This document shows, one piece after another, positions 1,257 to 21,107 of a stretch of DNA of 49,208 bases. Under the pieces are notes generated by a model that searched no databases, was not told the DNA's origin, and saw only the letters and a list, made by a program, of their open reading frames with translations. Position numbers and translations under genes: made by a program. The stretch's first letter is position 1. Every line of letters starts with the position of its first letter. Source of the stretch: Chrysophaeum taylorii (taxonomy: Eukaryota; Sar; Pelagophyceae; Pelagomonadales; Pelagomonadaceae). The stretch is taken from NCBI GenBank assembly GCA_029834535.1, contig JAQMWT010000497.1, positions 1 through 49,208 on the forward strand, read 5' to 3'.

Positions 1257-1660
1257 TCAACCTCAGCCTCGCCGCAAGACTAATCTCAACGCCGCTCACC
1301 CGCATTGGCGCCGACAGTAGCCGCAATTAAAAGCCGGCGGTACATGGCTGACTTCAAGTATGACCTGCTCAAGCAGAACATCGCTCTGACCCCACCCTCC
1401 ACTCCCTTCGTGCTGCTAATGGCATCCACTGGATGGCTATGCCACCAGAAGGGAATTTACACAGAACCCTCATCACTGTTCATCAAGCTCATTGCAGTCC
1501 TCTTCTGGTATGTCAAAGCAGTCTTAACCATCTGTGGCTGCCACACCAGTTCATAACGACGCCAGCGGACTTCCACCTCCCTCGTGCTCTTGTTCATCTA
1601 ATCTGAACACGTCCAGGCTTTTCAAGTTCCTCCGCTCAATATGCTTACGCGCTAACCACC
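1257..1660 (+). pseudogene. Degenerate linker between integrase and RT, element 1
   Basis: This stretch aligns loosely with the element B linker (about 14458-15103, minus), which begins with a Met-Ala-rich segment and runs to the RT. A short frame, 1305-1556, contains phrases similar to B (for example ADFKYDLL against ADFRWDLQ), but stops interrupt it. Unlike B, no SLNY motif lies just before the VGPDEYK sequence that opens the RT part of both elements. I see no other gene here. Confidence 0.5.
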
Positions 1661-3013
1661 ATGCATATGGACCATAACGACGCCTCTTATGGCGCCTCAG
1701 AACCCCACCTCTCCGCCATCGAGGACTACATCGCCGTGCAGTCCCATTACATCGGCGCACACCTTGAAGCTGATACTCTACTTGTCATTCGACTAGTCGA
1801 AACTCCCGATCCCGCTCACATTAACGCTATTGCTGACTCTTGCACGATCATCCACCTAACGCACGCTCAAGATCCTAGCACCGTTGGCCCGGACGAATAC
1901 AAAATACAAGCCAAGGACATCAAGATTGATGAGTATGAGTTGACATGCCTAAAAGGTCCCTCCGACGCTGATCGCAAGGCCCACATATCCGCAATTTCCA
2001 AGGAGATTTTTAATATTGTTAAGTTCGGTTGCTTCAAGTTATCGCTGCCGACGGCCAATTCCAAGCCCATCGATACTCGGCTGGTAATGCGCATAAAGAC
2101 CAACGCCGCCGGCGAGTATATCAAGCACAAGGCGAGATTGGTACTGAGGGGATTTTTAGCTTCCCTTGGCACCGATTTCTTCAACACGTTCAGTCCGATG
2201 GCGCAGCTCACCGGTATTCGTTGTGTTCTAGCCCTCGCTGCACACCTCCGACTTCCCGTTTACCACATAGACGTGCCCAACGCATTCGTCCAAGCCCCCA
2301 TAGACTCTCATGTCTACGTTAAATTACCGCAAGGTATCCACCTACTGGATCCAGAAGATGCCAAGTATCAAGGACGACGCCTCCCCAAGCTCCTCAAGTC
2401 GCTTTGCGGATTTCGGCAGAGCCCTGCTCTCTGGAACCAGACTATCTACGGTTTCTTCGACGCGTTAGGATATCACCGCTTTCGAACAGATACTTGCATC
2501 TATGCTAAAGTCCAAGATGATGCCACGTTCTTACTGTGTACCTTATCAGTGGATGATATTGTCGTCATCTGTACATCTGAAAGCCTACGCCGCGAATTCC
2601 AACAGGCAATGAAAAAGGAGTACTCCGTCGAAGAGTTTGAAGAAGTTCACACTCTCCTAGGCATGCGAGTAACGCGCACCGCTGATGGTTCTATTTCACT
2701 CGATTGTCAAGCTAAAATTGATGCCATGTTTGAAGAGCATTCCATCTTAATGAAACTACGCCCAACCTCTACACCTATGTCTCCCTCAACCACTTATAAA
2801 ACTGGAGAGCCGTCTTCTGACACGGACGAGTTCATCCTCCATACCTTTTCAACTCTGCTTGGCAAGCTCACCTTTGTGCAATTAGCTTGTCGACCTGGCC
2901 TATCACAAAGCCTCAGTCGCTGTTCCCGTGGAATGCATAATCCAGAATATATGCACGTCCATGTATTAGCAGAAGTGCTTCGTCATTTGCGCATGCCAGA
3001 AAGTCGCAATCTT
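1661..3013 (+). pseudogene. Copia reverse transcriptase, element 1, interrupted at its 3' end
   Basis: This is a continuous frame from about 1661. The RT core is recognisable: FGCFKLSLP, LVMRIKTNAAGEYIKHKARL, YHIDVPNAFVQAPIDSHVYV (motif A Asp in HIDV) and LCGFRQSPALWN (the usual LYGLKQAPRxW block, altered). LSVDDIVVI supplies the two catalytic Asp of the YVDD box as SVDD, and LLGMRVTR follows. The frame ends in the stop NLNY* created by the Helitron insertion at 3011. Without the insert it continues as SRNL-RLW into RNase H. The family would copy the element RNA into cDNA in cytoplasmic particles. The upstream start is uncertain because RT is normally part of a larger polyprotein. Confidence 0.85.
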
Positions 3014-3955
3014 AACTACTAATCGACAGATGTTTGTCTGTTTGTTTGTTTGTTTGTCCCTCGATTTAGGGTAAGGATCAGGTAGGCGCGCGAGCCAGGC
3101 AGTGATCCTCCAAGCCGTCTACGGCGACCTCGCAGACTGTTTCCACGACCCGCGGCGGCTCTTTCAGCGCGCCATTCTCACGCCCCGTCGAAACGATGTT
3201 GTCGATGCTGACAACGCGCGCATGACCGCGGCCTTTTTTTCCCGAAGACGAGGCGTCGGAGTTCTTTTCGGCCGACTAGGTTGGGTCGGAAGCCGACGCC
3301 TCGCTCTTTACAGTCGAGTTTTGAACTCCCTGACAACCAACGGCATGCTGACTTTGATCGCGAGCTTAAAGTCTTCGCAACCTCGACCCGTCGCACGGCC
3401 ACTGCAACGGTACCAGATACATGATCGATCGTGTCGTTGTCACCGAGGCTCCTCCAACCAGTATCCAGTAAGGCCCGCCTACGCCAAACGATCAACAAGA
3501 GCCAGGGCCAGACGCCCCGCGAGGTCGGCGTCCTCTTTCCCAAGCCCGTCTTCTGCCACGTCCAGCTCTACGTGGCTCTCTGTCGATCGGCATCCCCGAG
3601 GATATACTCATCTGGGTCGACGACTCCACCCTACCCCACACGTGCTGCGCAATATCGATAAGCCCCCTCCCGGCGTCTACACGCGCACGGTAGATGAACT
3701 TACTGGGACCAGGTGAACTTACTGGGGTTTGAGATTGGGACTAGGTGAACTAAGTGACCAGGTGAACTTACTGGGACCAAGTGAACTTACAGGGGTTTTT
3801 AGAGTGAACGCAAAGGCTAGCGGCGTGTACGGATAAAAGCGGCTTAGATTGGCGGAGGTGAGAGCGACGAGCTCGAAGGAGTGTGGGGTGAATGGGTGTG
3901 AGCACGAGTGGGTTTACGCCCAACTTACTGGGGTTACTTACTGGCCTGCACTTGT
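3011..3955 (+). mobile_element. Helitron-derived element, copy 1, inserted in copia element 1
   Basis: The insert is 945 bp. Its left terminus is CTTAACTACTAATCGACAG followed by a TGTTTGTC-rich run, and its right terminus is GGCCTGCACTTGT. Both ends recur in other copies in this window. Removing it restores AAT CTT CGA TTA TGG in the host frame; CTT is present at both junctions, so a short duplication and simple ambiguity cannot be separated. Inside (3100-3660) is the C-terminus of a Helitron Pif1-like helicase. The last 240 bp are repeats of GTGAACTTACTGGGACCAG. The termini do not show the classical TC...CTRR ends, so assignment rests on the helicase remnant and the shared ends. Confidence 0.8.
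3100..3660 (+). pseudogene. Helitron helicase (Pif1-like) C-terminal fragment, copy 1
   Basis: Read across frames, the order matches the last roughly 190 residues of Helitron RepHel proteins: ILQAVYGDLADCFHDPRRLF, QRAILTPRRNDVVDADNARM, FFSAD, FEFLNSL-like, [29 protein letters not shown] (3488-3514) and [16 protein letters not shown]. The KSQGQT and QLYVALSR blocks are helicase motifs of the Pif1/RecD-like superfamily. At least two frame changes and an upstream truncation make it non-functional. The Rep (HUH) domain and helicase motifs I-III are absent from this copy and from the window. Confidence 0.85.
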
Positions 3956-4669
3956 CTTCGATTATGGTACTACTCTGGCTCCTCTGCCCGAATGGAACAT
4001 CTACGCTCTATCATTGGCAATCGCACTGACATGGCAACCATGTTGGACTACACTAAAGAACAAGTGGATTCCGGTAACTTTGATCCACTGGTCGCGTTCG
4101 TAGATGCTGATAACGCGCCCTCCTACGAGCATGATCGCAAATCCACAACTGGTTACGCTATTTTTTTGCTTGGTTCCCTTATCACCTGGAAGTCCAAACT
4201 ACAGCCTATAACGGCTACTTCCACGCATGAGAGTGAACTCATTGCGCTTAATACGTGTGCTGATGATGTGGTCTGGTTACGTAAACTGCTGACGGAAATG
4301 GCCTTTGCTATAAATCCGCAATACTATCTTCGCCAACCTCCAGGGAAAGATTTGTTATTAGACTACGATGCCCATGACAATCCTCTACCGTCAGACATGT
4401 CATTCATGCGCAACAGTCCCATACTTGGAGACTCTGCTTCTGCCATCCATTTATCGAATAATCCGGACAGTGCGACCAAAGCCAAAGCCATCAGCACGCG
4501 CTGGTTTCGCATTCGTGACTATGTTCAACTAAGACGCATTCGTTTGCACCATATCTCAGGCACCCAAAACATTGCCGACGGATTCACTAAGCCTTTCGGT
4601 GCTCCCCTCTTTTCTACGTTTCGTACGTTACTTGGTCTACAACAACCCATAGCTCAGCAAGACGATTAA
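3956..4669 (+). pseudogene. Copia RNase H, element 1
   Basis: Downstream of the Helitron insert the RT frame resumes at CTT CGA TTA TGG and runs to a stop at 4669. Copia RNase H landmarks are present: VAFVDADNAPSYEHDRKSTT (first Asp), THESELIALNTCADDVVWLR (Glu in ESELIAL), DSASAIHLSNN (Asp), and TRWFRIRDYVQL with HHISGTQNIADGFTKPFG near the end. It degrades the RNA strand during reverse transcription. The element B copy (12611-13419, minus) is clearly homologous. The domain itself is intact but separated from RT by 945 bp. Confidence 0.85.
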
Positions 4670-4689
4670 TCATTACCCTCATCTCTATG

Positions 4690-4710
4690 TCCGCAATGAC
4701 ATTAAACTAG
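4690..4710 (+). other. Conserved pol/ORF3 junction motif (element 1)
   Basis: The sequence TCCGCAATGACATTAAACTA, followed by G, sits about 20 bp after the pol stop and before ORF3. It matches the junctions of element B (12575-12596) and element A (19083-19103) and, apart from the TAG-CCCT ending, the in-frame SLNY motifs. Here it is out of frame or ends in TAG, so it is not translated as SLNY. Confidence 0.7.
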
Positions 4711-4791
4711 CCCTCGCAGCAACGGAATCATAAAGCTCTATAAGATGCGGCTCGCTGAAAACAATACCCCCCCCATGCATACAATATTTGT

Positions 4792-6797
4792 TTGCTGATG
4801 ATGAATCCAACGAAAAATAAAGACGATGCTCGACGACGACACTCAGTGCTTGCTCGCGGACGTGGCGGAATATCGGCACTGTCGCCTTTTAATCCATTAA
4901 ATCCTGCGCTTATGAACTCTGGATCTCCAAATACGCGCAAAAAACCTTCCTATCTGTCCATTGCAAAGGGAACGAAGACACCTGTCACTCCGACGGCGGA
5001 ATCAACCCGACAGGATGTTGTCACCCCTGCTAAGAGCGCAGAATATTCGTTGTTAAAACATTGCAAGTTTGACGTGATGGCAATGATATCAGGGAATATT
5101 CTTTCTCTTGGTAATCATCCACCCAATTTTCTCCTTCCTTCACCTAATGACATTCAATGTTGGTCACAGCCTATGCATCAGCTTCTCACCGATGCACAAA
5201 TGCCGGCAAAACTGATAACGTACGTTTTCTGGGTTCTCTCCTGTGCTTAAAGACGAAAAGGATAAAGAATGCACCAAACGTGCAGGCAAATGAAGGCATA
5301 CGCTTACACAAATTTCCTTCTATCAAAGGAGTTGTCAAAGTGCATGTACATTGTACAAAATGTATCAACAAAACGGACGCGCCTGGTACTCCTTTGGTTC
5401 TCGCAATCTGCACTGAGGACGAAGTAAAAACCGAAGCTATCGCTAAGCTTATAGAAGAGCACTTACTATCGGATACTCATGCTGAACATTGCTTTGATTT
5501 TCCGCGCCCCGTCTACCTCTGTATATGTGTCATGTGTAACCTATCACAGCATGGTATCGCTTTAATGAAAAGTCGTCTGGACAGATTTCTACTCTCATGT
5601 GATAATGACCCATCAGCTCACATTCGAGCTGCTATTCTGCGTTTTGGAAAGTCCATCCCAGTAAATAAACAGCTCAAGGACGCACTACTAAAGTACATGG
5701 CTGCGCATAATATCGATAGCTCTGACATTGTAGTCAACCCAGATGATGATAATTTCCCTCTTCTCCTACAACTACCTCGCATTTCGATCGTAAACATTGA
5801 AATACTTGTGACCTCTTGGTCATTGCTACAGTCCGTCGAAGATAAAGCCTGCGTCGTCACCAACCCTGATGAGCTCCTTGCAGTTCTCATCGAGTGCTTC
5901 ATTAACGATGTCTCGCGCCAGATTAACACATCCTCTCATGTGGTATTGCCGCCGTTGGTGGATTATTTGCTAAAGTTGGTCCCGGACCACCAGACTGCAT
6001 TCAAGAATGTGCTTATCCAAACTGGTTATCCTTCCGTAATATTTGACTCATTTGCTGGCCCTAAACTGTCTGAAGGCGAAGAAGAACATGCTAAGTTTAG
6101 CACCTCTTCTACAGTAGAGCCACCCGAGAATGTCCCGGAAACCATACGAGCTCTGAGAGACGAAGCAAAAACACTATCTTTACACGTCACCAAACGTGAT
6201 AATCAACTATCAGAACGTGATAATCAACTATCAGATGCGCTGGAGACCATTACTCAACTTAAAGACACAATTGATGTACTAACCGCGCAATTGACCGATA
6301 ATACCAAGCATGTATCACTCTTGGACGATTTGTTTTCTAACTACCAGATGCACCAGGATGCCACGTTGCAGGCTCTTGCTGTTTTAACTCACCTCATCTC
6401 GAAGTCACTCATCACTTCAGTTGGTCAGTCTCTTTCAAACACCATTGAAGAGGAGCGACGACTTGTAATTGAAAATGCAGCTGTTGGTTTACATACCGCT
6501 ATGTCTGATGCAAAGGAACATGTTATCCCTGCTTCCGAACTTCGTACCCTACCACCCGCCGCTGCTCTGTCGTACCTATCATCCGTTCTACCTCCACTTT
6601 CCGATCTCTGTGACGTGACGGTCTTGAACAACAATACTAATAACGATGATTCTGACCATGTCACTTCTACACCGGAATTAAAGAAACTCGACGAGACCAG
6701 TGACGATGAATTGGACCACACTTCAGCTAAGATGGATGAAGACTCGTTGCGTAATGTAACAACACGCCATACATCCTCTTCCTCATGTCAATCGTAA
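4792..6797 (+). CDS. ORF3: post-pol protein of the copia 1 family, Cys-pair region plus coiled coil; one probable frame break
   Basis: This ORF lies where an env-like gene would be, after RNase H and before the 3' end. Two frames overlap: 4792-5250 and 5157-6797, with the break near 5245. The N-terminal part is basic and Ser/Pro-rich. The middle has a Cys pair HVHCTKCINK, then YLCICVMCNL and HIRAAILRFG. The C-terminal third is a long coiled coil with a repeated RDNQLSERDNQLSD segment and an acidic tail. Elements B and A carry homologues (MSFRCLQCFDKDG, ILSSFCTQCLDN) in the same place. No signal peptide or membrane segment is visible, so an envelope role is not supported. Function is unknown; a gag-like or nucleic-acid-binding accessory role is an inference. 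Confidence 0.65.
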
Positions 6798-7228
6798 CTT
6801 TGTCGTTTATGTTGTTGTTTTTCGTTTAATTGTTCGACGCTTTCATGTATCGTACACAAGCTTCACACTCAAGAACGTCTGGAATGCATAAAGCATTTTC
6901 CACACGTTGAGGGGGTCCAGAGAGCTACACTATAATGTGTACGACGCTGGAGTTCCTCGCACCACTTCTCACACTCCTTCTACACGAGGGTTTTCTCTCC
7001 GCAATACGGCTTTCCCTCATACCCCCCCCTTCCTTACCCTTCCGCAATTATTTCTTTCAAGACTATGAAGATCCCAGTCTGAAGCTTTCTTCCAACAAGG
7101 AGAAGTCCTCCAGGTGCGTACCGTTAGGTACGGGGCTTTCTGCTTAATTAGCAGAAGCTTCGTTCCTCGTTGTCAGTGTAAAAGCTTCTATGGGACCTAA
7201 TGTCCTTAAGGAGTTAGGGCCTAAATCC
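6798..7228 (+). repeat. 3' non-coding/LTR-like tail of copia element 1
   Basis: There is no ORF of note. The segment shares short blocks with the non-coding tails of elements B (10130-10545) and A/B (17515-17945) when those are read on the minus strand. The clearest are CTTCCTTACCCTTC-like sequence and a GGTAC-containing stretch near the end. No second copy is in the window, so calling it an LTR is an inference from position. Element C starts at about 7229 in the opposite direction. Confidence 0.4.
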
Positions 7229-8063
7229 CTACCTTGTGTAGTAGCATGTGACAAGCGGAATGGTCTGTACACGCCTAAGACCGCACGCGGTCTCTACCAT
7301 GTACCCGGAGAGGGTCAATTCTCTCCAGTTCCACTCGCGAGCACTTAGGACAAACAGGTGTCGACCCTGCACTGGCTTGAGGAATAGGGCGTAGTCAAGC
7401 TTGACGTAGCCGATGCCTGGGTGAGCAGGTAGGGGAGATACGATATTTTCGTGATCATAATATGCGACACCTGCTGTTGTCCAGTGGCAGTTTGGACAAC
7501 TGGGGCACACTTAGGGTCTATGGGGACAATATGATTCGGTAGGGCGAAATCAAATGTGGTCATCAAAGAGATGGATGCACAGCTGTCCAGGTATAGGAAT
7601 TGGAAATGAAAGGGGGAGATTGTGGTCTCTCCGGTATTTGGTGAGAAACGCGTGTTCGCGAGGCACACTTGTGACACTGGTAGAGGGAATGCTGGCTGCG
7701 AACAAGCTGGTTTTAGTAAGTAGCTTTGAGGTGACCACAACTTGTGAAAAAGCAATAGGGACGACGGGCGCAGTATGTTCGCCGTTGTCCTTGCCGAGAC
7801 CGTTGTTAAGATCGAATGGTGAGAGGTCTTGTGGGTTACTCGATGATGTAGTATCGGCCGCTGCTTGATCGGAGCTCCTACGGCACATAGCTGCAGTGAC
7901 ATGTGACGAGAGCTCAGTCGGCCGCTCAGGTGACAATTTTGCTATAGCGCCCGCAGTAAAATTGGCTGATTCCGCGGGAACAGTGGCGGGTGATGAACTG
8001 TTGCCAATTGCGTTATATGGAGTGGAGGAGTTGGGTGCAGACACAGTAGGTTGGTCTGCCCCA

Positions 8064-8084
8064 TAGTTTAACGACGTTGCGGTC
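8064..8084 (-). other. SLNY motif, element C, linker before protease
   Basis: On the minus strand ACC GCA ACG TCG TTA AAC TAT encodes TATSLNY, followed by Gly. It lies about 480 bp upstream of the protease signature, in a low-complexity linker. Confidence 0.75.
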
Positions 8085-9031
8085 GAAAGCGGATGTATGT
8101 CATCGTTCCGAACGATATCTTCGGCATAGGAAAGTTGATCATTTAGGCGGAGCAAATCTGCATTGTCGTCTGGGTTAGACGTAGTGGCAATAATATCAGC
8201 AGATTGCAACAGCGTTTCAAATAGCTTTGTAATCTTATCTTGCAGCTGAGCCGTAGTGGCACTTTGGTCAGTATAATTTGAGAGTTCACGTAATTGATCT
8301 TTGAGTGCATGCATGGCATGCTTAGTACGATCTAACAATTTCATGTCCGATCGAGAAGGTCTGTCGAAGGAATGTGCATACACAGGTCGATCGTTAGATT
8401 GACCAGGACTGCGAGCTCTGGTGACATAGGAGTCACCGGACCGGTAGTAGCTAAGATCATTAGGAGATAAGGGCTGGTTGGCGTCTTTTTAGTTACGTAA
8501 GCGTCGTGCGTTAAACGCGGGTTTCGGCAGTTGTCCATTGGCTGAATTGGTAAGCGACGCAAATACATGTGCTGTGTGCGCCAGTTCATAGTCCGTAGAG
8601 TCCAACAGCTGGGTTAGCAGTATTTTGGGTTTTTTGATGTGTGGACAATCCTTCTACGTAAGGGATCCAAGAGACTGGCGGTTCAAGACGTCTTTTATCG
8701 CTTGTAGTATTGGACACTGAGTTGTAGAGGTCCAAAGCGAACTCAAGAATGGCTGAAGAGTCAGAAGGATGGCATAGCCTGTTAGCTTCAGGTTGTGCTC
8801 TGGTAGAAGAGCGTGTCTCGTAGATGACGCACCAGTTGACCCATCCTCTATCGTAGCGATTATTGCTGGTGTTGTCGGAGGATAGTTCATTTTAGCTGCA
8901 CCTGAGAAAGCTGGGCAAGGGCAGCTTCAGTAAAGTTTACCGACTCGGTAGTATGGCAGAAGGAAAGCCGGCCATTGGAATCAGCAGGAAGAATAACGAT
9001 GGGTCCAGACTCAGTAGAACGTTCTGGCCCA

Positions 9032-9052
9032 TAGTTTAACGACATTTCGGTC
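9032..9052 (-). other. SLNY motif, element C, after gag
   Basis: On the minus strand ACC GAA ATG TCG TTA AAC TAT encodes TEMSLNY followed by Gly, downstream of the gag-like block. The flanking linker is Ser/Thr-rich. Confidence 0.75.
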
Positions 9053-9701
9053 GGAAGCAGATGTGGGAGAGAGTTCCGCATGAGGTCAAGTTCAGATCCG
9101 TGGGTGTCCAACAGTTGAGTTAAAACAGGAGATGCTTGAAAGAATGCACACATTTAATGAACAACATGTACACACCAATTATGCACAACAGCGTTTAATT
9201 GTTGATTCAAATACGAGACATCATTCGGAGACACTGCTTCGTAAAAAAAGGTAAAGTATTTATTGGTAATGGCTGGCTAGGCCGAGAGCAAACGTTCGCG
9301 AATGGGTGAGGTTAAGGTTGCATTCACCATCCTCAAGGCGATCGTTAATTTCGGGCGGAAAAGCCCTGACCTCGTTAGCGTAGCAAACAGTAGCCAACTG
9401 TGCTACTTGATGGTCTGATATGAGTGGGGACGCCTCAGATATGAGGCACCTGGTATTCAAAGGCAAATCTTCAACATAACCAAGGTTAACACCGCCACTC
9501 TGGTGTTGGAATGGTTGTTCTCGCTGAGAAAATCAACGGGAACCTTTGGTAAAGGAATGTCAGCACCCACACTGCTTTGGGTGCGACCTTTACTGCTTGT
9601 TCTGCAAGAGAACGGTGACTGAACCTGTGGGTTGTCAGAGAGCAGACTTGACACCTTCTAGAACATTTTAAGGGGCTCTGTCTAGCGCTGTCTATGCACA
9701 C

Positions 9702-10129
9702 TCATCAGGTAGACAATGGAAAGCGACTATATGGCAAAGGTACAAACTGTGGCTCCTGCCAGTGTGAAAGGGCATGCACTGACAGGCAGTTGTTAGGGTG
9801 GTGCTCAGAGAGCGGGTAGGTTTGTACTATCGTGGAATGTCCTAGTGGACATACCCAAAATATCCCAAGCGCGCGTGGAATCAGTACAGGTTAGCCAGAC
9901 TACACGCACACCGACACTATCACGACAATACGATGACTATAAACAGCACACAGGGGGTACGCAGTCTTAACGTGTGCGGTGTAGCTATGTACAACCCATG
10001 TTAAAGCGTATACAAAAACTTGTGTTGCATGGCGAGGCTAGACCGGCGCGTTAACGGTCCAAAACCCAACATGGCACGTGCATGCAACACATGATCCCTC
10101 AGGACCCCGCTGGGCCCATAACCTGCAGA
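9702..10129 (-). other. Non-coding spacer between elements B and C
   Basis: I see no gene on either strand. By position this would be the 5' leader of element C. No clear primer-binding site or repeat was found. Confidence 0.4.
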
Positions 10130-10545
10130 GAATTCCGCTAGGCAGTGGTTAAGTCACTGAGAGACCATCCCGCCTTCCCGTGTGAGTCTGGCATGGTAGA
10201 TTTCAGGGAACAAAGGTTAGGTCCCCCTAGCCTCGGCACACGACAGACGATACATTGAAACACACCAGGTTAACATGTGATCCTACATACCTACGGGACG
10301 CGCTAGTTCATGGCGAGCTTGGATGCAAATCAAGGACTATAGATTTGGTGAAAAGGGAATAAGAAGGGTAAGGAAGAGATCGCGCTCTCGACGGATTGAC
10401 AAGGATAATAAGTTCGCAGATTCCTCTGCACCCCCTCGAGACGTCTTGATGCAGAGCAATATGACATCTCCTGAGAAGTGTGATAAGGACGAGATCAAGA
10501 TGAACAAGACGTGCACCTCCGATGTCACATAAAGTGGCACAACGC
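10130..10545 (-). repeat. LTR-like block between elements B and C
   Basis: This block aligns with 17515-17945. Shared stretches include GTAAGTCAC near the left end, GGGACGCGCTAG, GAAGGGTAAGGAAGAGATC and CCTCGAGA-GTCTT. It follows the ORF3 end of element B at 10570 and precedes the leader of element C, the position of an LTR. The two blocks differ by roughly a quarter of positions by eye, so if they are the LTR pair of B the insertion is old; alternatively they belong to different elements. TG...CA ends could not be fixed. Confidence 0.5.
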
Positions 10546-10569
10546 GTTCATCATTAGACTCGAAAGTTA

Positions 10570-12564
10570 TCAGGACTTGGATGACTTGGTCAAAGCAGTA
10601 ACACTTTGAATGATTTTACCTAGGGAAGCTTTGAGATAGGGTAGCGAGTGTGGGGTCGTTAACGGTAACGGTGAGGAGAAGGCTTGATCTTCAGGTATTT
10701 CACGTATGGCGGAAACGTCATCATCCTCAGGTTCAGAAGAAGGATTGATGCTCTTTGCAAAGCAATGTTGAGGAATGATGCGGTGAGTGAGCGCAAGTAG
10801 TTGATTTAAGATCTGCGGAATGAGGCTGCTCAATTGCAGTTCATCGAGATGATCTTCAATGGATTGCGGCGTAGTAAAGGAGTGTTGGAGTGACTCAGCC
10901 TGTTGTAAGGACGGGTGATGAGTCGTGCGAATTAACTCGTGGCGAAGCTGAAGGAGAGCGTCATCGGGCATGCCATATTTTAAGTCATGTTGGTCGTGGA
11001 GCGCAAGAGTAAGTCGGTTGAGTAGTTCACACACTTTGAATAAGGTCACCAGCAGAATATTGGTGTTGGAAGTGGCAGGGAATGGTCGATTCTCCATGTC
11101 ACTTATACTTGTGACAGCATTGCGCAAGTCCGACCGTAAATCGGCATTTTCCGTGGTTGAGGCATGAGAGCGCCGAGTGAGGTGGTTACGTGACATCCGG
11201 AGCGTCTTAACCTGCTGTGTAAGCCGAGTCACATGGGATGATAACATTTCAAGATCGGAGGGAGCAGCAGTAGCTGGTGCCGGGGCAGTAGATGCCGTTG
11301 GCGGATAGTTTAACGACGTTTCGGTCGCAGCGGTAAGTTCAGCATAAAGCTGAGGATACCTGGAAGACAAACGCTTTGTGAAGTCTTTACGTTCCGCCTC
11401 AGTGAACGTATTTGAAGATTGCATTTCTTCAAAGACGGACGGTGGCTTTTCTTCATCACCAAGTGAAGTATAATCGGCAATGTGTCGAATGAGGGAGCGA
11501 GAAATCGTTTGGACAAAAGGCTTGTAGGCACTAGCCTTGATGATCGACTGTTTCTTCGCATGTGTGCTCACAACCGTCGCGATAAACGACAAATGCTCCA
11601 AGTGCAATCTGGATATATACTTTAAGTTGAATGGGTAGGGAGATTGATGCGAATCCGTGGCAAGCATAGATGGTACAGTGATATCGGCGGGCAATATATG
11701 CTGTTTCGATATTTATTGCAGCAGAGCTTGGAGATCTGAAGGGAGAAAGTAAACGCGGAGAATGGTGGCCCTTAGGTGACCAGCTGGGGATGATTCACAC
11801 GGAAAGGCAGTAACACGCGCATTGCGTGGAAAGAAGAGGAAGCTAAGGATATTGTGGTCGGAGTTCAGACAGGCGCAACATAGAGGCATAGTAGAAACAG
11901 AAATAGGTATGAACGCATTCCCGATGTGTAGAGCACTAGCCAAATGCTCCAGGACGCTGGCGGGAATTTCATCCATCTTCCTCTTGTAAGCAGTAACACA
12001 GATTTGAATGGTTTTCCATCTTTATCGAAGCATTGCAAGCAACGGAAAGACATTTGTTGGGTTTCCTTTTTCAGGGCCACGATAGCAGATAGTGGTGTGA
12101 ATAGCGGGTGCAGAGGGTAACGGGAAGATGACCGGGGGGCGGAGCGAAACGAAGTTGGACAGCTCCATGAAGACTTGGTGATCCAAATGATCCTTTGACG
12201 CGTAAACCGAATCAATTGCGCCCTGTAAATCAGCACGCAAGAATGAGGAGAGCATGTTGGCAAAGGGAGGTCGATACTTTTTATAATGAACTGGTAGTCC
12301 TTGTTCAAGCTGATTGATGTTAAAGTTCACGGCGTCGGCAAGAGTAGTTGGTGAACTTGAGTCAGCATGCGTCGCAGAGGCGGAAGTAGAAAGAACCCGA
12401 GTGATGTCCTCGCGAGTCCGCTTCCTGCGGCTCGGGGAATGTTGACGGAAGACTCCGCGGGCGCAAGTGTGCGAGGCAGCTCGCGACGAGCGGGCGTGAC
12501 TCCTCGTGGAAAGCTTCGCCAGGGTCGCGGCTGCATCGGCGACGTACGAGTAAAGTAGTGGCAA
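10570..12564 (-). pseudogene. ORF3 of copia element B
   Basis: It is read on the minus strand in three pieces (12564-12022, 12308-11713 region and 11694-10570), so at least two frame changes separate them. Homology with the other ORF3 copies is clear: LSSFLRADLQGAIDSVYASK against element A LSSFMRVELITALYSVYES, ICYRGPE against GCYRGPK, and MSFRCLQCFDKDGK against the element 1 Cys pair. A second Cys cluster MPLCCACLNSD and HLRATILRV follow. The C-terminal 374-codon frame holds a SLNY motif, a coiled-coil stretch (LSSHVTRLTQQVKTLRMSRN) and an acidic segment. No membrane anchor is seen. Function is unknown. Confidence 0.65.
11306..11326 (-). other. SLNY motif, element B, within ORF3
   Basis: On the minus strand ACC GAA ACG TCG TTA AAC TAT encodes TETSLNY followed by Pro-Pro and an Ala/Pro/Thr linker. 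It separates the Cys-pair half of ORF3 from the coiled-coil half. Confidence 0.75.
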
Positions 12565-12574
12565 AAAATGAGGG

Positions 12575-12596
12575 CTAGTGTAACGACATTGCGATC
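12575..12596 (-). other. Conserved pol/ORF3 junction motif (element B)
   Basis: On the minus strand GATCGCAATGTCGTTACACT ends in TAG-CCCT, right after the RNase H stop at 12611. It matches the junctions of elements 1 and A. In the pol frame it lies after the stop codon, so it would be translated only by readthrough. Confidence 0.7.
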
Positions 12597-12610
12597 ACCA
12601 GGGTTAGTGA

Positions 12611-13419
12611 TTAGGTCTCATCATGGTCTGAATCAGTAGCATGATACATACCTAGAAGAGAGCGAAGTGTAGTAAAGTCGGCAGCAAGAGGCTTTGTAAA
12701 GCCATCGGCCACGTTTAATTTGCCCGGGACATGATGGACGCGAATCTTTTGCAATGCGACATACTCGTGAATTTTGAACCATCGTGTAGACAGGGGCAAG
12801 TGGCTTTGCTGCGAGAAGAGCCGTCGGGATTATTGGAAGTGTGGACGGCAGCCGGGTTGTCAAACAAAAGAGGTAGACATCTAATGAAGCGCACATCCTC
12901 GGCGATAGGATTGTTGTCTGCATCAAAATCGGATGGAGGATCAGCTTGCGTGTTGATGTAGAACGTTGGGTTAACCACAAACGAGAGCCCAAGAAGTAGT
13001 TTGCGGAGCCAGACTGCTTCGTCAGCGCAGATGCTTAGTGCGATGAGCTCAGCTTCGTGGGTAGAGCACGAGACGATAGGTTGTAATTTGCTTTTCCAAG
13101 CGACGAGGCAGTTGAACAGGTAGAAGACAAAGCCAGTAGTGGACTTCCTATCTTCCTGTTCCAGTGAAGGAGCATTGTCAGCATCTACCATAGCAACTAG
13201 GCGGCCGAACCTGCCAGTAGCTATATCTTTGTCCTGATAGTCGACTACGGTCGATAAGTCAATTCGGTTAGAGGAGATAACGCGCAAGTGATTCTCGATC
13301 GCGTTGCCTTTAAGGTGAAACCAGAGACGAAGAGCTCTATTGGCTGCCTTACTGAGGTACCGTAGGAGGTGGCAGAGCATCCGAATATGCATAATTAGGA
13401 GTGCATACCTCGGGAACAA
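12611..13419 (-). pseudogene. Copia RNase H, element B
   Basis: Frames 13419-12715 and 12799-12611 together give LRLWFHLKGNAIENHL, VAMVDADNAPSLEQEDRKST, THEAELIALSICADEAVWLR, DNPAAVHTSNN and STRWFKIHEYVAL, with VADGFTKP at the end. These are the same landmarks as element 1. One frame change near 12760 separates the TRWF block from the rest. The product would remove RNA from the RNA-DNA hybrid. Confidence 0.8.
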
Positions 13420-15103
13420 CGTCCTAGAGCCGGAGAGAAATCTGGGCGACAGGCGACTTGCATAAAGGCCAACTTGCCAAGTAACGTAGCGAAGTGGTTG
13501 TGTATATAAATTTCCACATCAGTGGAAGGAGAGCCTTCCTTGTAGGTGAAGGTTGGCGAAATAGGATACTCCAGCGGAGAGAGTGTCTTCAATATTGGAT
13601 GATCGTCGAACTGCGAATCTAGTTTGGCTTGGACGTCTCAAGATATGGATCCATCCGACGTTCTGCAGACGCGCATCCCCAGAAGCATGTGGACTGTCTC
13701 GAACTGTTCCATGGAGAAGCGTTTGTATAGTGCTTCTTGGAACTCAGTGCGCAGGGTATCGTCATTCGCAACTATGACGATATCATCCACAGATAGGCTG
13801 CATACGAGGAATCGAGCGTGGGTAGATGTGCGAACGTATAAACATGTGTCCGCATGGAGTCTCTTATACCCAAGACTCCGAAAGAAACTGTCGATCTCCT
13901 TGTTCCAGAGAGAGGGATATTGCCGGAGTCCGTAGAGAGACTTAAGCAACATGGGTAAGCGGCGACCACGATATTTCTCGTCTCGAGGATCGAGTAACTT
14001 GATGCCATCGGGAAGCTGGACGTAGACGTGTGCATCTATGTCGGACTGGACGAACGCGTTGGGCACGACTTCTTGTAAGCAGCAATGGCTAAGATGACGC
14101 GTATAGCAGTCATCGTTGCCATGGGACTGAACGTCCCAAAGAAATCGGCGCCAAGTGAAGCTAAGAAGCCACGCAAGACTAACCGAGCCTTGTGCGTGAT
14201 ATACTCCCCGGAGGCGTTGGTCTTGATCTTGAGTACCAGGCGACTGTCGATTGGACGAGTCGAAGCATCAGGTAGGGCTAGCTTGAAGCACCCGAAGCGC
14301 ACGATATCCTGCAGCTCCTTTGCAATCGCCTTGATGTAGGCTTGCCGGTCTTCAGGAGTAAGTCCTTGTAAGCACTTTAGCTTGTACTCATCGATAGATA
14401 CGTCGGCCTCTTGGACTTTGTATTCGTCCGGGCCTACGGTGGCTGGGGAGCCATAGTTTAACGACTTTTCGGTCGAAGCAGTGTAAAGGACTTCTGGATA
14501 AGCGTGAGTGGCACAAGTGGAAGGAGTGGAATTGTCAGGTTCCAACTCAACCACAAGGAGAGGTTCCTCATGAAGTACCTGGGTAATGTACTCGGTGGAG
14601 CAGAGGAGATATTCCTCCGGGTCAGATAGTGCAGCGGATGTAGCGCCAAACTCAGATGGTGAATGATCGATGAAGCTGGTAGGTGCCAGGTAAGAATAAG
14701 CATATTGCAATGGAGAAACACCGAAAGCCGAGGCGTGTTCCATGAACATGGCAATAAGTGGAGACGGAAGGTGACAGAAGGGTGTGTCATCCGTCGTGAG
14801 GTGTGTAGCCACTGGAATGCTGGATGCACATTTGGTTTGAGAGAAAACACCATCAACCAAAGGATATCGAGATGAAAGGTCGGTACGTAGTGGGAGGATG
14901 TGTTGCACCAGCATAGCCTGTTCCCCCTCTGGGCAGAGAGCCGTCCAGTGGATGCCACCAGAGGAGTTGAGGGCGGAGAGGGTGGGCGATTTGAAATCAA
15001 GAAAGCGATGCTGAAGATCCCATCGGAAGTCAGCGAGTTTGCCACCAGCGGTTTTGTAGGCACCAACAGTGGAGGCTTGAAGCCGAGCAGTCACAGAGGC
15101 CAT
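13395..15103 (-). pseudogene. Copia linker and reverse transcriptase, element B; catalytic Asp of motif A lost
   Basis: Frame 15103-14036 covers a linker, the SLNY motif, VGPDEYKVQ and the first RT half (RFGCFKLALP, LVLKIKTNASGEYITHKARL). Frame 14066-13638 continues from VPNAFVQSDIDAHVYV through LKSLYGLRQYPSLWN and LSVDDIVIV to LLGMRVCR. Element 1 has LPVYHIDVPNAF where B reads YKK directly before VPNAF. The residues that include the motif A Asp are therefore deleted and the frame shifts there (about 14060). The last part is in frame 13592-13395. The enzyme cannot be active. Confidence 0.8.
14454..14474 (-). other. SLNY motif, element B, between integrase and RT
   Basis: On the minus strand ACC GAA AAG TCG TTA AAC TAT encodes TEKSLNY followed by GSPATVGPDEYK. 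It stands just before the RT domain. Element 1 lacks it at this place although VGPDEYK is conserved. Confidence 0.75.
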
Positions 15104-16419
15104 AGAGGAGGCCTTGCGTTGGTTGGGGCGCTTGGGTCCCGGGACAAGTTGAAGGTTGTCTTGGGAAAACAGGTCCTTGTAAAAGGGAAGGACTGGCGGT
15201 GGCGAAAGAGTATTGTCGTCAGCAGGTTAAGCTGCTGGGGTAGAAGTAGGAGACTGGGGCGGAGAAGACGACGGGGGGGAGCGGGAGAAGAAGACGGAGC
15301 AGTAGGGTGCCCCCTCCGAGTATGAATCCCCCTCTGCAACGCATCATCGGGGTCGTCATCTCGATGAGGGGTGATGTCGAAAGACACAGGCGGAGCATCA
15401 GGTGGAGGAGCATGTTCAGGGTCAAGGGTTGAACGCTGGATCATGTATGTGAAGGTCAGCTTGGAGGTAACGCGAAGCTGGCCATTTTCAGGGTTGAGGA
15501 CGACATCAGCTTGATGGTCAACATGAGGAGAAACAAGCGGGTGTTGCGAATTGGCACAGCACAGGTAAAGATAGCGTCGGCGAGACGGTTCATATTTGTG
15601 ATGTTCGTGAGGTTCTAGGAGTAGGAAGCATTCACTGCCGAATATTTTAAGGAGATCATGTTGAGGAGTGTTCAGCTGATTATAAAGGAATTGTTGTGGA
15701 CTGATGATTGCGTGGTGAATGCGTTCGAGGGAGGCATTAGGTAAAGATGTTGTACGATTGAATTGTATGCACCACAGCCCACGGAAAGTGGACTGCAGGT
15801 TCCACGATTTTGGCGCCACGGTAGTGGGCATTGAGGAGGTTACGGAGGCGAGTTGAGGAGGCAGAGGCAATGAAACCTATGCTCTGTTCGACTTCGTGAT
15901 TAAAATGATGAAGGTAAGGCGGGAAAGCAACCAGGTTAATGCCTTTATCTACCCGACAGGGGGTAGTAATATGCTGACTGAAGTACGGAAGAAACGCATC
16001 GGAGTAGACCGTGCGTAGATGTACATTCAGTTGTGTTATGCAAAAGGCAAGCAAGTAGTCCAGGGCTTGAGTAAATTCGGTCGCGTTGGTAGCGCGCGTA
16101 AAATAAGCCAGTAAAAATTTTGACAGTAGTCCTTGAAGACAACGATGTGGGTGAAGCCACCCCATTCAGAGGGGATGGTGACGTAACCACCATCGCAAGC
16201 CCAGACTTCACCTGGCCGGTGAGTCTGTTCAAAATTGGGCTTGGTCTGGTTCTCGTGATCATGGGGATGACGTTTGTTGTGGCAAATACAGTCGATGCAG
16301 AGGTCTCGGTAGGGTATGTCCGATGCTGAGAAGCCAGGACGAGCAATGACGTCAGGGGCTTCGGCAGCTACGTTGCCAGGGCAATGATGTACCTTGTTAA
16401 AGCGGTTAGCCCTTTGCAT
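15091..16419 (-). pseudogene. Copia integrase, element B
   Basis: Minus-strand frames 16419-16036, 16165-15737 and 15870-15091 carry the integrase: CIDCICHNKRHPHDH (zinc-binding region), GEVWACDGGYVTIPSEWGGF (first Asp), HITTPCRVDKGINLVAFPPY, HFNHEVEQSIGFIASASSTR (Glu region), then YLYLCCANSQHPLVSP and VVLNPENGQLRV, followed by a Pro-rich linker. The family inserts the cDNA into the genome. Two frame changes are needed to read it through. It aligns well with the debris of element 1. Confidence 0.75.
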
Positions 16420-17512
16420 TCAGGTATTCAACTGTGCCATGAGCGAGTGATTTACGGGGAATCGACTTGACAGGGATATGTCGCTTCCTGCGAACGCTGA
16501 ACTTAAGTTCCGTGGACGCATCTAATGAGGGAGCGTTGGTGTCGTCGTTGGAGTCACCATCAGTGGCAGTTGTGGTTGTAGAAAGTGCTTCTTCAGGTGC
16601 AGTTCCTGAGGAGCGGTAGTTTAACGACATTTCGGTCCAGCTGCGGGTGGCGATGTAACTCATGAATGCATCAGCCTGAGAAATAATATATGAGCTGTGA
16701 CTGGAGAGAGACAGTTCAAGAGTGAAGAAGGTAGACACATAGGTCTTCTTCAAGGTAGCAATATCATGTTGAAAGGAAAGGTCCAACATGGGAGTCTTCA
16801 TATCGACAACTCTGCGGCAAATATGCGTATATAGTGTATGTTAAGTGCCAGCAGGCAAGGCATTGCTGAGAAGATCACAGTACAGGTCCTTCTTCAGTGA
16901 GAGTAAGAAGGTTACCTGAGGGCGAGTATGGTTGTTGGCTCTAATAAGCTCAGAGCGAGTTGGGTAGCGAAGTTTGCCATTGCGTGGATCCAGCAAGATC
17001 ATGTTGGCGTATCCACGTATGGTGGACAGAGGTGCAAGCATGGAATGAATTTTGGATCCGAGCTTGCGGTCGCTGCCGCGTAAGTAGCCAATGTACCGAC
17101 TGTGAGAAAGATGACGGTCTTCAAATGAGAAGTATTTGTCTTTGAAAGAGAGTCGGTCGCAAGATCGATCGTAAGTGACTCAGTTGGGCATGATAAGGGC
17201 GCACTGTTGGAGCAGATTACAAATGGCAGGGCGTGTGCCGTGAGCTGTGTCAATAGGAGGGTAGGCTTGCACGAGCCAGAGATAGCCTTGGAACGAATCA
17301 AGGTGAAGTGTTTTGTCGGTGTGACTATCGCAGGCAGTTGGCGTGTAGGTGGATCCAAATGCATAAATGGAAGCTTGGTAGTTGCAGGCCTTGTTTTCAA
17401 CTAGTAGGTTGCCTTCGGAATGGTGTCCACCAGCAAGAAGGTGGATATTGAATGTAGATGAGGAGTTTGTAAGAAATAACCTAGGTTCGGGTTGGTTAGT
17501 TTTGCAGAGCAT
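16406..17512 (-). pseudogene. Copia gag-like region, element B
   Basis: Frames 17512-17180, 17400-16999, 17041-16841 and 16801-16406 overlap on the minus strand, so the gene is broken. A short match to element C (VQAYPPID against VRAFPPEIN) and position between the LTR-like block and integrase suggest gag. No CCHC knuckle and no DSGA/DTGA protease were found, so either the protease is deleted or it is too diverged to recognise. The last frame contains the SLNY motif and leads into the integrase zinc region. Confidence 0.45.
16617..16637 (-). other. SLNY motif, element B, before integrase
   Basis: On the minus strand ACC GAA ATG TCG TTA AAC TAC encodes TEMSLNY followed by Arg-Ser-Ser. It lies in a Ser/Thr-rich linker about 200 bp upstream of the integrase zinc region. 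Confidence 0.75.
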
Positions 17513-17514
17513 TT

Positions 17515-17945
17515 AGCATGCAGTGGTAAGTCACCTGGGAAACCATCCCGTCTCATCATGAACGTCTGGAAGGTTAATTCGGGGAATGAAAGGTATGTTC
17601 CCTGTATCCGCAGAACACGGCAGGCGGCATCTAGAACTACACGAGAAAGGTTAAGTGTATAGTGCTACATACCTCGGGACGCGCTAGACCATGATGATGA
17701 GCTTGAGCACAAACCAGAGGACTAATTCACTGTGTAGAAAGGAAGAAGAAGGGTAAGGAAGAGATCACGTTCTCAACGGACGGATAAGGGTAAGAGGCAT
17801 CAGATTTCTCTGCACCTCCTCGAGATGTCTTAAGCGCAAGGTGCGACTATAGAACATCTCTTGAGAAACATGATGATGAAGGAAAGAAGAAAGGAGTATA
17901 CAGTCTTGATGGTCGCAGAGGTCACATACGAAGCATCAAGAGTAT
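17515..17945 (-). repeat. LTR-like block between elements A and B
   Basis: This block aligns with 10130-10545 (see there) and contains no ORF. It follows the ORF3 end of element A (17959) and precedes the gag-like region of B, so one block appears to serve as 3' end of A and 5' end of B. Confidence 0.5.
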
Positions 17946-18393
17946 AGAAGGAGCGTCTTTAAGGCTTAGGTTTGGTGTGGCCGAGAGTCGATTTGATGCA
18001 TTTGAACAGAACACTACGAAACACAGGTACAACAGACAGTGTGTTAGGATTATCTGAGGTGGTAGATATCGTTACCGGTTCGAGAGTGTTGGGATCATCG
18101 TCAGCTTCTGCTGTAAGGTGGTCAACACCAATAGCTGAATGATGTGGTGCCATGTGAAATGTGAGTGCAAGTAGAGCATTCAGTATGGATGGCAAAAGAG
18201 AATCTAGTTGTAAGGTGTCCAGTTGGTTTTCCAAGAAGTTGGACTCAGCGAACGGATCCGTGAAGATAGAATAGTTTCCTGGAGCTGTTCGACTTGTTGA
18301 CGCAAGGCGTCGAAATCAGCAAGCGAAGCAGAAGACGTAGGATGTGACGATGGCGATGATATCTCCAGAGTAGGGTCTGGCGTGGAGTGTAAG

Positions 18394-18414
18394 TAGTTTA
18401 GCGACGTTTCGGTG
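18394..18414 (-). other. SLNY motif, element A, within ORF3
   Basis: On the minus strand ACC GAA ACG TCG CTA AAC TAC encodes TETSLNY followed by Leu-His. It is at the same place in ORF3 as the element B copy at 11306. Confidence 0.75.
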
Positions 18415-19082
18415 AACACATGCTGTGTAAGTGAAGGGTATTTCGCGTTTAAAAAGCGCAGAAAGTCTTGATGTTCTGCCTGAGTATAAGTGGGGCCGAA
18501 CATCTCATCCAGGAGTGACGGCGGTTTTGTATCATCTGAAGATGATACGTAGTCGTCAAGATGTTGTACCCAAGATTATCGAGGCACTGCGTACAAAAGG
18601 ACGACAAAATGAAACGTTCGCGTTTGGGGCCTCTATAGCAGCCAATAGAAGCAATTGCAGGAGCAGCTCCAAGGGGTAGTAATGGGTACACACATGGATA
18701 TGAATGTAGCTAGTTCCACACATAATGAAGAGTCATTAGACTCATAAACGGAATAAAGCGCGGTAATGAGTTCCACTCGCATAAAAGAAGAGAGAAATGG
18801 GGTGACAGGGACACGGTAGTTCTCAAAGAGAGAGATTCCTCGCTCGTACGCAGCATAGTCAATGCTGAGGCAGTCCTGGAACGTCAGCGACGGAGGTGAG
18901 ACATGCACGGCTGGTGTCGGTGCAACCGCAGCAGCCTGGGGGAAGGTTCGGCCGTGGAGAGCGAGCGTGGGACTGTCCTTCGAACGACTGGGGAGAAGCC
19001 GCGGCCACGGGAGTGCCAAGAAAAGGACATAGGCGACACTCACACGCACAAAAAGTTATGGCAAAAGAAGGTAGGGCCAGGG

Positions 19083-19103
19083 CTAGTTTAACAACGTTGC
19101 GGT
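19083..19103 (-). other. Conserved pol/ORF3 junction motif (element A)
   Basis: On the minus strand GTGACCGCAACGTTGTTAAA is followed by CTAG-CCCT, as in elements 1 and B. It is the last part of element A left before the Helitron derivative that starts near 19155. Confidence 0.65.
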
Positions 19104-19154
19104 CACTGGGGTTAGGCATCTTCAATGCTGTAGAGGCTTGTCATCATAGAGATA

Positions 19155-20125
19155 GACAAGTGCAGGCCAGTAAGTTCACCTAGTCCCAATCTCCAACCCC
19201 AGTAAGTTCACCTGGTCCCAGTAAGTTCACCTGGTCCCAATCACTAACCCCAGCAAATTCGGCGTAAACCCAATCTCTAACCCCAGTAAGTTCGGCGTAA
19301 ACCCACACCCACTCTCCTTTGAGCTCGTCGCTCTCACCCCCGCCAATCTAAGCTGCTTTGATCCGCACACGCCGCTAAGCTTTGAGTTTACTCTAAAAGC
19401 CCCAGTAAGTTCACACTTGGTCTCAGTAAGTTCACGTGGTCACTAAGTTCACCTAGTCCCAATCTCCAACCCCAGTAAGTTCACCTGGTTCCAGTAAGTT
19501 CACGTGTGGGGTACGGTGGAGTCGTCGACCCAGATGATTATATCCTCGGGGTTGCCGATCGACAGAGAGCCACGTAGAGCTGGACGTGGCAGAAGACGGG
19601 CTTCGCCAAGAGGACGCCGACCTCGCGGGGCGTCTGGCCCTGGCTCTTGGTGATCGTTTGGCGTCGGCGGGCCTTAAGGGATACAGGTTGGAGGAGCCTC
19701 GGTGACAACGACACGATCGATCATGTATCTGGTACCGTTGCAGTGGCCGTGCGACGGGTCGAGGTTGCGAAGACTTTAAGCTCGCGATCAAAGTCAGCAT
19801 GCCGCTGGTTGTCAGGGAGTTCAAAACTCGACTATTGAGAGCGAGGCGTCGTCTTCCGACCCAACCTAGTCGGCCGAAAAGAACTCCGACGCCTCGTCTC
19901 CGGGAAAAAAAGGCCGCGGTCATGCGCGCGTTGTCATCATCAACAACATCGTTTCGACGGGGCGTGAGAATGGCGCGCCGAAAGAGCCGCCGCGGGTCGT
20001 GGAAACAGTCTGCGAGGTCGCCGTAGACGGCTTGGAGGATCAGTGCCTGCCTGGCTCGCGGGCCTACCTGATCCTTACCCTAAATCGGGGGACAAACAGA
20101 CAAACAGACAGACAAACAGACAAAC
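19155..20125 (-). mobile_element. Helitron-derived element, copy 2
   Basis: Plus-strand coordinates start with the inverted right terminus (ACAAGTGCAGGCCAGTAAG) and end in a CAAACAGACAGA-rich run. The helicase fragment (about 20040-19500, minus) carries the same blocks as copy 1, including a TITKSQGQT-like motif near 19640 and the SFEFLNSL region. AGTAAGTTCACCTGGTCCC repeats occupy 19155-19500. The CTACTAATCG end is missing because copy 3 begins at once. Confidence 0.8.
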
Positions 20126-21107
20126 ACAAATGCAGGCCAGTAAGTTCACCTAGTCCAAATCTCCAACCCCAGTAAGTTCACCTGGTCCCAGTAAGTTTCA
20201 TAAAAGTTCACCTGGTCAGTAAGTTCACCTAGCTCACACCCACTCCTTCGAGCTCGTCGCTCTCGCCTCCGCCAATCTAAGGCGCTTCGATCCGCACACG
20301 CCGCTAACCTTTGAGTTTACTCTAAAACCCCCAGTAAGTCACCTGGTCCCAGTAAGTTCACCTGGTCACTCAGTTCACCTAGTCCCAATCTCAAACCCCA
20401 GTAAGTTCACCTGGCCCAGTAAGCTCACCTACAGTGCGCGTGTAGACGCCGGGAGGGGGCTTATCGGTATTGCGCAGCACGTGTGGGGTAGGGTGGAGTC
20501 GTCGACTCAGAAGAGCATATCCTCGGGGTTGCCGATCGACAGAGAGCCACGTAGAGCTGGACGTGACAGAAGACGGGCTTGGGCAAGAGGACGCCGACCT
20601 CGCGGGGCGTCTGGCCCTGGCTCTTGTTGATCGTTTGGCGTCGGCGGGCCTTAAGGGATACAGGTTGGAGGAGCCTCGGTGACACGACACGATCAATCAT
20701 GTATCTGGTACCGTTGCAGTGGCCGTGCGACGGGTCGAGGTTGCGAAGACTTTAAGCTCGCGATCAAAGTCAGCATGCCGTTGGTTGTCAGGGAGTTGAA
20801 AACTCGACTGTAAAGAGCGAGGCGTCGGCTTCCGACCAAACCTAGTCGGCCGAAAAGAACTCCGACGCCTCGTCTCCGCGGTCATGCGCGCGTTGTCAGC
20901 ATCGACAACATCGTTTCGACGGGGCGTGAGAATGGCGCGCTGAAAGAGCCGCCGCGGGTCGTGGAAACAGTCTGCGAGGTCGCCGTAGACGGCTTGGAGG
21001 ATCAATGCGTGGCTCGCGGGCCTACATGATCCTTACCCTAAATCGGGGGACAAACAGACAAACAGACAGACAAACATCTGTCGATTAGTAGTAAGGATCT
21101 GCCGATT
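20126..21107 (-). mobile_element. Helitron-derived element, copy 3
   Basis: This copy is head to tail with copy 2. It begins with ATGCAGGCCAGTAAGTTCAC at 20128 and ends with ACATCTGTCGATTAGTAGTA at about 21091, followed by a second, slightly different CGATTAGTAGTAAGG (to about 21115). The helicase fragment (21005-20460, minus) has [20 protein letters not shown] and QLYVALCR in one frame. The frame also shows the [12 protein letters not shown] block after a frame change. It is closely similar to copies 1, 2 and 5. Confidence 0.85.

Follow-up and report, generated by a model that had tools for sequence, protein, structure and literature searches.

A close described counterpart of a short sequence repeated along a retroelement polyprotein is the protease cleavage site of retroviruses and long terminal repeat (LTR) retrotransposons, which is conserved loosely and as a peptide. 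At the primer binding site, different LTR elements are said to share about 21 nt that are targeted by miR845, a single site fixed by the tRNA primer. The excess production of Gag by copia elements with a single open reading frame (ORF) is, to our knowledge, not settled in general. Among DNA transposons, the VANC21 target of the VANDAL21 elements of Arabidopsis is a 9-bp motif, YAGTATTAY, that lies mainly in tandem repeats in non-coding parts (PMC5735166). Here we describe a 21-nt motif, GACCGMANNGTCRYTAAACTA, carried by LTR retrotransposons of the pelagophyte Chrysophaeum taylorii and first seen along copia elements in a 49,208-nt stretch of DNA (contig JAQMWT010000497.1 of assembly GCA_029834535.1, positions 1 to 49,208), referred to as the window. 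No earlier description of such a motif was found in the open-access literature, which leaves out most subscription papers.

The motif is tentatively read, at a rough probability of 0.4, as a signal that acts in cis in the full-length sense RNA of several families of LTR retrotransposons. The nucleotide signal seen in copia elements and a gypsy-like element is itself real and strong; the surprise is high, and the mechanistic certainty low.

The motif unit and its occurrence

A first-pass annotation of the window had described a near-invariant motif of ~20 bp occurring nine times along its copia elements. The pattern TAGTTTAACGACNTTTCGGT, allowing up to three mismatches, recovers eight of these copies, at 8064, 9032, 11306, 12576, 14454, 16617, 18394 and 19084 (0.01 expected from dinucleotide shuffles), and the ninth, on the plus strand at 4690-4709, emerged with four mismatches at a looser setting. 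The nine-fold recurrence holds, with the positions given as 12575 and 19083 off by one. As had been proposed, the six in-frame copies (8064, 9032, 11306, 14454, 16617 and 18394) encode T[E/A]xSLNY, and their placement between polyprotein domains is repeated across the family B loci read.

Across the genome (70.8 Mb, 697 contigs) the 21-nt motif has 1,383 copies, against none of a reversed control, and the pattern of the first-pass annotation has 804 exact copies, against none of its reversal. A pattern at the amino-acid level, ACNGMRNNNWSNYTNAAYTAY, which allows other codons and translates roughly as T-[E/A]-x-[S/T/C]-[L/F]-N-Y, has 1,285 copies (controls, 2), and 1,192 of these match the strict nucleotide pattern. 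The base that precedes the 20-mer is G in 1,383 of 1,397 copies, though the residue there varies. The extent of the unit was read from 23 representative copies, 17 coding and six junctional, one chosen for each site and family and picked intact (L009 over L011 for the family B ORF3, L013 over the window for the family A junction). Conservation is nearly full between the base just ahead of ACC and the second position of the Tyr codon, both included, with exceptions at positions 5, 7, 8 and 12 (also 1 and 10 in family 1), and there is little outside.

When the motif core was sought in 23 stretches (L009-L029, L037 and window 5001-20500), only the known sites were returned, and never in antisense. 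A partner for the motif within the element RNA itself was considered and rejected, as no antisense core was found in these stretches at up to two mismatches. A match of the motif's reverse complement to the D-arm of tRNA was weighed by eye and dropped. Beyond this genome, the exact motif was found in 48 stretches of prokaryote contigs (genome_contigs), about the chance number (an estimate of ~60 for 257 Gb), and in 38 of viral_contigs, above a very rough estimate of ~10; 84 of these 86 stretches carry a single match.

The carriers were grouped into families, with individual loci cited by L number. Family A consists of the minus-strand elements at ~8-17 kb of the window and L013, and family B of the copy at 18-19 kb and most of L009-L028. 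Family D is L037, close to A, and family F is L008, which is old and decayed. Element 1 of the window and L029-L036 form family 1, and L038, L040 and L041-L042 form family E.

Conservation of the nucleotides

Families A and B are 73% identical over the part spanning integrase (IN) and reverse transcriptase (RT), and their four-fold degenerate sites are saturated, agreeing in 35/102 (IN-RT), 11/39 (ORF3), 5/19 (border of protease, PR, and IN) and 13/40 (gag/PR) cases. Within the motif, at four orthologous sites represented by one chosen copy each, 28 of 28 third codon bases agree, compared with 116 of 292 in the 40-codon flanks (Fisher p=4e-11, indicative, as are the other p-values of this comparison, because the sites share one origin). 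A recount that gives no preference to intact copies changes this little: 27/28 when L011's own ORF3 copy is substituted (p=1e-9), and 347/357 when window A is compared with all B rows. The third base of the Tyr codon, the first beyond the unit, agrees at one of the four sites and in 16 of 51 rows of the all-row count, all 16 at IN/RT. Since synonymous sites between A and B are saturated and all 28 third bases of the motif agree, the bases themselves are therefore selected, and the first-pass claim that they are kept beyond the needs of the protein is borne out.

Among the copies seen, the free residue x may be K, M, T, A, S or E, yet its third base is G in about 99%; 13 copies genome-wide have another base there, two of them apparently unrelated. 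The strict pattern, with Leu as TTA and Ser as TCG, is kept in 1,192 of 1,285 copies although, in those A and B segments where codons were counted, TTA makes up 4-23% of the Leu codons and TCG 12-20% of those for Ser.

These observations bear directly on the possibility that the motif is a protease cut site only, with T[E/A]xSLNY cleaved between Asn and Tyr by the element protease and the equal codons reflecting history rather than selection. The peptide SLNY recalls SQNY of HIV-1 MA/CA, and a cut site would suit in-frame copies that stand in one phase at likely domain borders or in mid ORF3 or gag, the motif pair of L040 (87 nt apart, after a zinc-knuckle-like stretch placed by eye), and the Ser/Thr swaps and ACN/TAR variation of family 1 junctions, which look protein-like. 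It would not, however, account for third bases that agree in 28 of 28 cases (347/357 in all B rows) despite synonymous saturation, for the fixed third base in the free residue x and in the preceding codon, or for the use of the same bases by two unrelated kinds of element, and this account is considered unlikely.

Carrier elements and position of the copies

The assignment to Ty1/copia rests on PF07727 (RVT_2 after the integrase) in family A and element 1, and families B, D and 1 could be aligned to A or B. Domain borders were judged from RVT_2 and alignment, with the protease and integrase ends set by eye; by this measure the in-frame copies read stand at likely domain borders or in mid ORF3 or gag, and the copia copies lie about 1-3 kb apart, unclustered. 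Copies at gag/protease, protease/integrase and integrase/RT are common to families A, B and D, and an ORF3 copy is present in A and B (the corresponding part of D falls outside coverage). An extra gag copy occurs in family A (window, L013) and in L004/L005, which are D-like in their gag/PR part; it was found neither in the D copy L037 nor in the B stretches L039 and L021. The IN-RT fragment of family A gave nine distant RT relatives, and SLNY is absent from the four of these that were read. For ORF3 and the presumed gag of family E, the protein database yielded no relative at E 0.001.

Family 1 presents a different arrangement, with the junction copy in six of the eight loci read. In-frame copies are absent from the parts of these eight loci that were seen (gag and gag/PR lie outside coverage), which, by the test proposed in the first-pass annotation, counts against its reading, and no second copy was seen in element 1, whose gag and protease part lies outside the window. 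Because family 1 shows only the junction copy in the parts seen, this copy may be the older one, and the in-frame copies may have been added in the A/B/D lineage. Another copia of the window, at 43412-48181 (-), has one intact ORF of 1589 aa and no motif at up to three mismatches. A word repeated at each border was sought both there and in family 1 (L029, gag not covered), and only repeats of two or three copies emerged, none of that kind. They include tandem arrays, a duplication of 300 nt in L029, a 94-nt pair resembling LTRs, and short pairs such as one of 16 nt at 44060 and 47136.

The motif is not only a copia feature, because it is also present in the gypsy-like family E, where two copies stand 87 nt apart in the presumed gag; in the E2 copy, L040, the pair comes just after the zinc-knuckle-like stretch. 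In blastn against the other loci and the window, E matches copia loci over 23-28 nt at the motif, the only part it has in common with the copia bodies; its remaining matches are to the E copies L038 and L040, along with three short matches in L039, which lies upstream of a B copy. The E sequence covers the start of the RT domain, which gives no Pfam RT match, although its PDB matches, weak and 14 in number at E up to 1 (best E 0.0082), all belong to RTs or to polyproteins that carry one. Upstream of the RT start lies a stretch resembling C5 cytosine methyltransferases (PF00145, E 4.2e-5, narrowly above the cut-off; L041-L042, G000:C30:104700-110900), and a Gypsy-Dnmt3 element is reported from Klebsormidium (PMC5890265).

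Features of the window are collected in Table 1. The stretch LYLDSCASISL in the region around the gag/PR motif is taken to be the protease active-site motif. Look-alike inserts with repeated TGAACTTACTGGGG units, identified by eye, lie in or beside copia elements at ~3020-3945 (+) and 19160-20080 (-). The sequence GGTTATGGGCCCAG, at ~10110-10123 (-) after a likely LTR end, resembles a copia primer site for half tRNA-iMet.

Table 1. Motif copies and associated features in the window
Feature	Position	Strand	Remark
Motif, pol/ORF3 junction of element 1 (diverged copia family 1)	4689..4709	+	G TCCGCAATGACATTAAACTA, next G completes TAG
Motif, gag/protease border	8064..8084	-	S-TATSLNY-G
Motif inside gag, same element as 8064 copy	9032..9052	-	P-TEMSLNY-G
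Motif, mid ORF3, family A	11306..11326	-	A-TETSLNY-P
Motif, pol/ORF3 junction, family A	12576..12596	-	ATCGCAATGTCGTTACACTA then TAG; pol frame, behind TAA stop
Motif, integrase/RT border	14454..14474	-	S-TEKSLNY-G
Motif, protease/integrase border	16617..16637	-	W-TEMSLNY-R
Motif, mid ORF3, family B copy	18394..18414	-	F-TETSLNY-L; preceding base C here, G in other B copies examined
Motif, pol/ORF3 junction, family B	19084..19104	-	ACCGCAACGTTGTTAAACTA then TAG
Integrase region end and RT (RVT_2) start, family A, around IN/RT motif	14036..15226	-	PF07727, E 4.5e-9
Gag end and presumed protease region around gag/PR motif	7345..8488	-	LYLDSCASISL; no Pfam protease match
ORF3 part, family A	10570..11712	-	No Pfam family above cut-off; no protein-database relative at E 0.001
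RT and RNase H of element 1, broken by insert ~3020-3945	1607..4669	+	No in-frame motif

The pol/ORF3 junction

The base after the 20-mer is a purine, giving TAR, in 205 genome copies and a pyrimidine in 1,192. The TAR copies are not all junctions, as L008 shows: its TAA copy, the sole match of its pattern, belongs to a gag/PR site that has decayed. The copies at 4690, 12576 and 19084 had been described as ending in TAG at the pol/ORF3 border and as not translated in the pol frame. Their TAG end and position stand, and the copy of element 1 of the window is indeed out of that frame, but in the A, B and D copies with a followable frame the junction copy lies in the pol frame, ~10-12 codons past the first stop. 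Family B junctions take the form pol-TGA-12 codons-SLN-TAG, and in the B copies L025 and L012 the first stop is replaced by a sense codon, and the listed pol ORF of L025 reaches SLN-stop. Directly behind the junction motif of L015, L020, L023 and L027 (and similarly L018), its end is partly repeated as 8 nt, CAAACTAG or CAAACTAA.

Family 1 junctions read MS(E/A)MTLN-stop, with the Thr codon ACT, ACG, ACA or once ACC and the stop TAA or TAG in the listed copies. At L029 and L031-L035 a short frame, ATG TCC GMA ATG ACN TTA AAC TAR, precedes ORF3 in the manner of an upstream peptide. Judged by its sequence, the family 1 junction frame may be translated into a short peptide, but the L031 and window element 1 type does not share the pol frame. 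The earlier suggestion of a splice or trans-splice acceptor, with AG at the 3' edge of the motif, was dropped because TAA ends many family 1 junctions; in-frame copies end in TAY.

Ribosomal recoding is a further alternative, in which NTTAAAC, standing in the phase G UUA AAC, would cause a -1 slip at the borders that soon meets a stop, leaving Gag in excess over the products encoded downstream. All 23 representative copies have TTA AAC in the slippery phase, with N = G in 19, the heptamer GUUAAAC is listed as the slippery site of equine arteritis virus (PMC3835772), and fixed phase and sense orientation would both be accounted for. The first -1 stop follows within 0-43 codons in all but two in-frame rows, and chance gives the same. 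Fusion of pol with ORF3 by frameshifting was rejected, since the frame is not kept: the junction's -1 frame contains the ORF3 ATG in 3/15 anchored B rows (one copy listed twice) and in the one anchored A row, and in the three of four anchored family 1 rows where it is so, that frame closes after 10 codons. Recoding would also leave unexplained the conserved bases upstream of the heptamer, and CTA AAC is common at one B site (IN/RT). Folding downstream is not significantly stronger than elsewhere (mean z -0.85, n=22, vs -0.48 in 150 control windows, p=0.11). Slippage, which could still act as frameshift-to-stop at the in-frame sites, is an improbable explanation of the motif.

Phase, variation within family B and module exchange

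By hand inspection, two of the three sense phases of the motif are open, and every in-frame site read uses the same phase. Were the six positions (gag, gag/PR, PR/IN, IN/RT, ORF3 and E) six separate gains, this agreement would have a chance of 1/32, which is suggestive, no more, of a peptide or translation role.

Variation within family B was counted in loci selected by their junction only. Singletons at in-frame motif sites (13/1071) are not significantly rarer than in the flanks (45/2418, p=0.20), and shared-variant columns number 2/84 in the motif vs 18/189 in the flanks (p=0.043). This fits selection on the motif in replicating lineages, not on dead copies, which decay normally once inserted.

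All 101 classifiable copies have upstream and downstream flanks from the same site, some being counted twice since a few loci overlap; in 18 of the 119 copies the flanks were too weak for classing. Taken with the singleton counts, this does not favour the proposal of the first-pass annotation that the motif might be a mobile or converted sequence, as one acting in place. A related idea is that the equal 21-mers allow template switching in reverse transcription between borders and families. Equal bases and equal phase at the borders would serve such module exchange well, but the absence of any chimeric site among the 101 of 119 copies classified leaves it very improbable. In sum, a protease site by itself falls short as an explanation of the motif, and neither a splice acceptor nor a frameshift into ORF3 nor shuffling of modules accounts for it.

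A proposed signal in RNA or in DNA

The same word at protein borders of unrelated elements, conserved even at bases that the protein does not require, points to an undescribed RNA or DNA signal. The RNA level is preferred because the copies are in sense orientation, inside or directly behind reading frames, and at borders. On this reading a putative trans-acting partner, either a host RNA-binding factor or a 21-nt guide RNA, would read the motif as RNA, and the same bases would code for a short peptide, T[E/A]xSLNY, that links polyprotein domains and may be cut by the element protease. Several points weigh against it. The natural flanks do not make the motif more accessible than shuffled ones do (mean z 0.16, n=22, p=0.44). 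The word also admits some change: many B copies have CTA in place of TTA at IN/RT, 3/10 B ORF3 copies have TCA in place of TCG, and all four bases occur at position 12 of family 1 junctions. Finally, the within-B p of 0.043 is marginal, and the 28 third positions come from four sites with a shared history and are not independent events.

A binding site at the DNA level, where a host or element protein would hold the 21 bp of the integrated element or its cDNA for internal regulation or anti-silencing and the linkers would merely tolerate it, is a doubtful but credible alternative. It would suit nucleotide-level conservation with a sharp 21-bp edge and a motif common to two kinds of LTR element, and motifs shared across a transposon family and bound by a transposon protein are known from VANC21 (PMC5735166). 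On the other hand, the motif core is absent in either orientation from window 10.1-10.5 kb, read here as LTR and leader, the copies read are all in sense and in one of two open phases, and the copia copies are scattered at borders rather than clustered, though family E has its pair.

The guide-RNA form of the favoured RNA-level reading would make the motif a 21-nt small-RNA target (guide 5' UAGUUUARYGACNNUKCGGUC) by which the element or host controls or cuts the RNA. The length of 21 nt suits this, and guide positions 1-7 would be invariant and 13-14 free; yet the reason for an element to retain a silencing site is unclear and the fixed phase is left unexplained, making this form quite unlikely. 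A wider and rather speculative proposal is an RNA boundary code common to unrelated LTR retrotransposons of this host. One 21-nt word, read in translation phase, would mark borders within the polyprotein as well as the junction of pol with ORF3, and the ribosome, a host factor or a guide RNA would use it to set the amount of each protein. If true, such a code would be a new layer of retroelement gene expression beside splicing, frameshifting and proteolysis. A nucleotide-level border word common to copia and gypsy-like elements would mean either a new expression signal or a host factor exploited by several elements.

Comparison with known systems

The motif shares with the protease cleavage sites of retroviruses and LTR retrotransposons a short peptide repeated at polyprotein borders, and differs from them in that third codon bases are kept and the same bases occur in unrelated elements. 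Where the miR845 target reportedly occupies one site per element, here there are 1-6 sites per element family, at protein borders. The likeness to equine arteritis virus lies in the same heptamer GUUAAAC, in the right phase and directly before a stop at a junction; the C. taylorii copies differ in having no conserved downstream frame or clear structure, and in conservation that extends upstream of the heptamer (PMC3835772). Clustering in non-coding DNA of the VANC type was not seen among the motif copies in the loci and 23 stretches read. The VANC21 motif is likewise short, specific to transposable elements and present in many copies of one orientation, but it belongs to one DNA transposon family, whereas the motif described here is 21 nt long, dispersed, placed in coding linkers and common to two kinds of LTR retroelement (PMC5735166).

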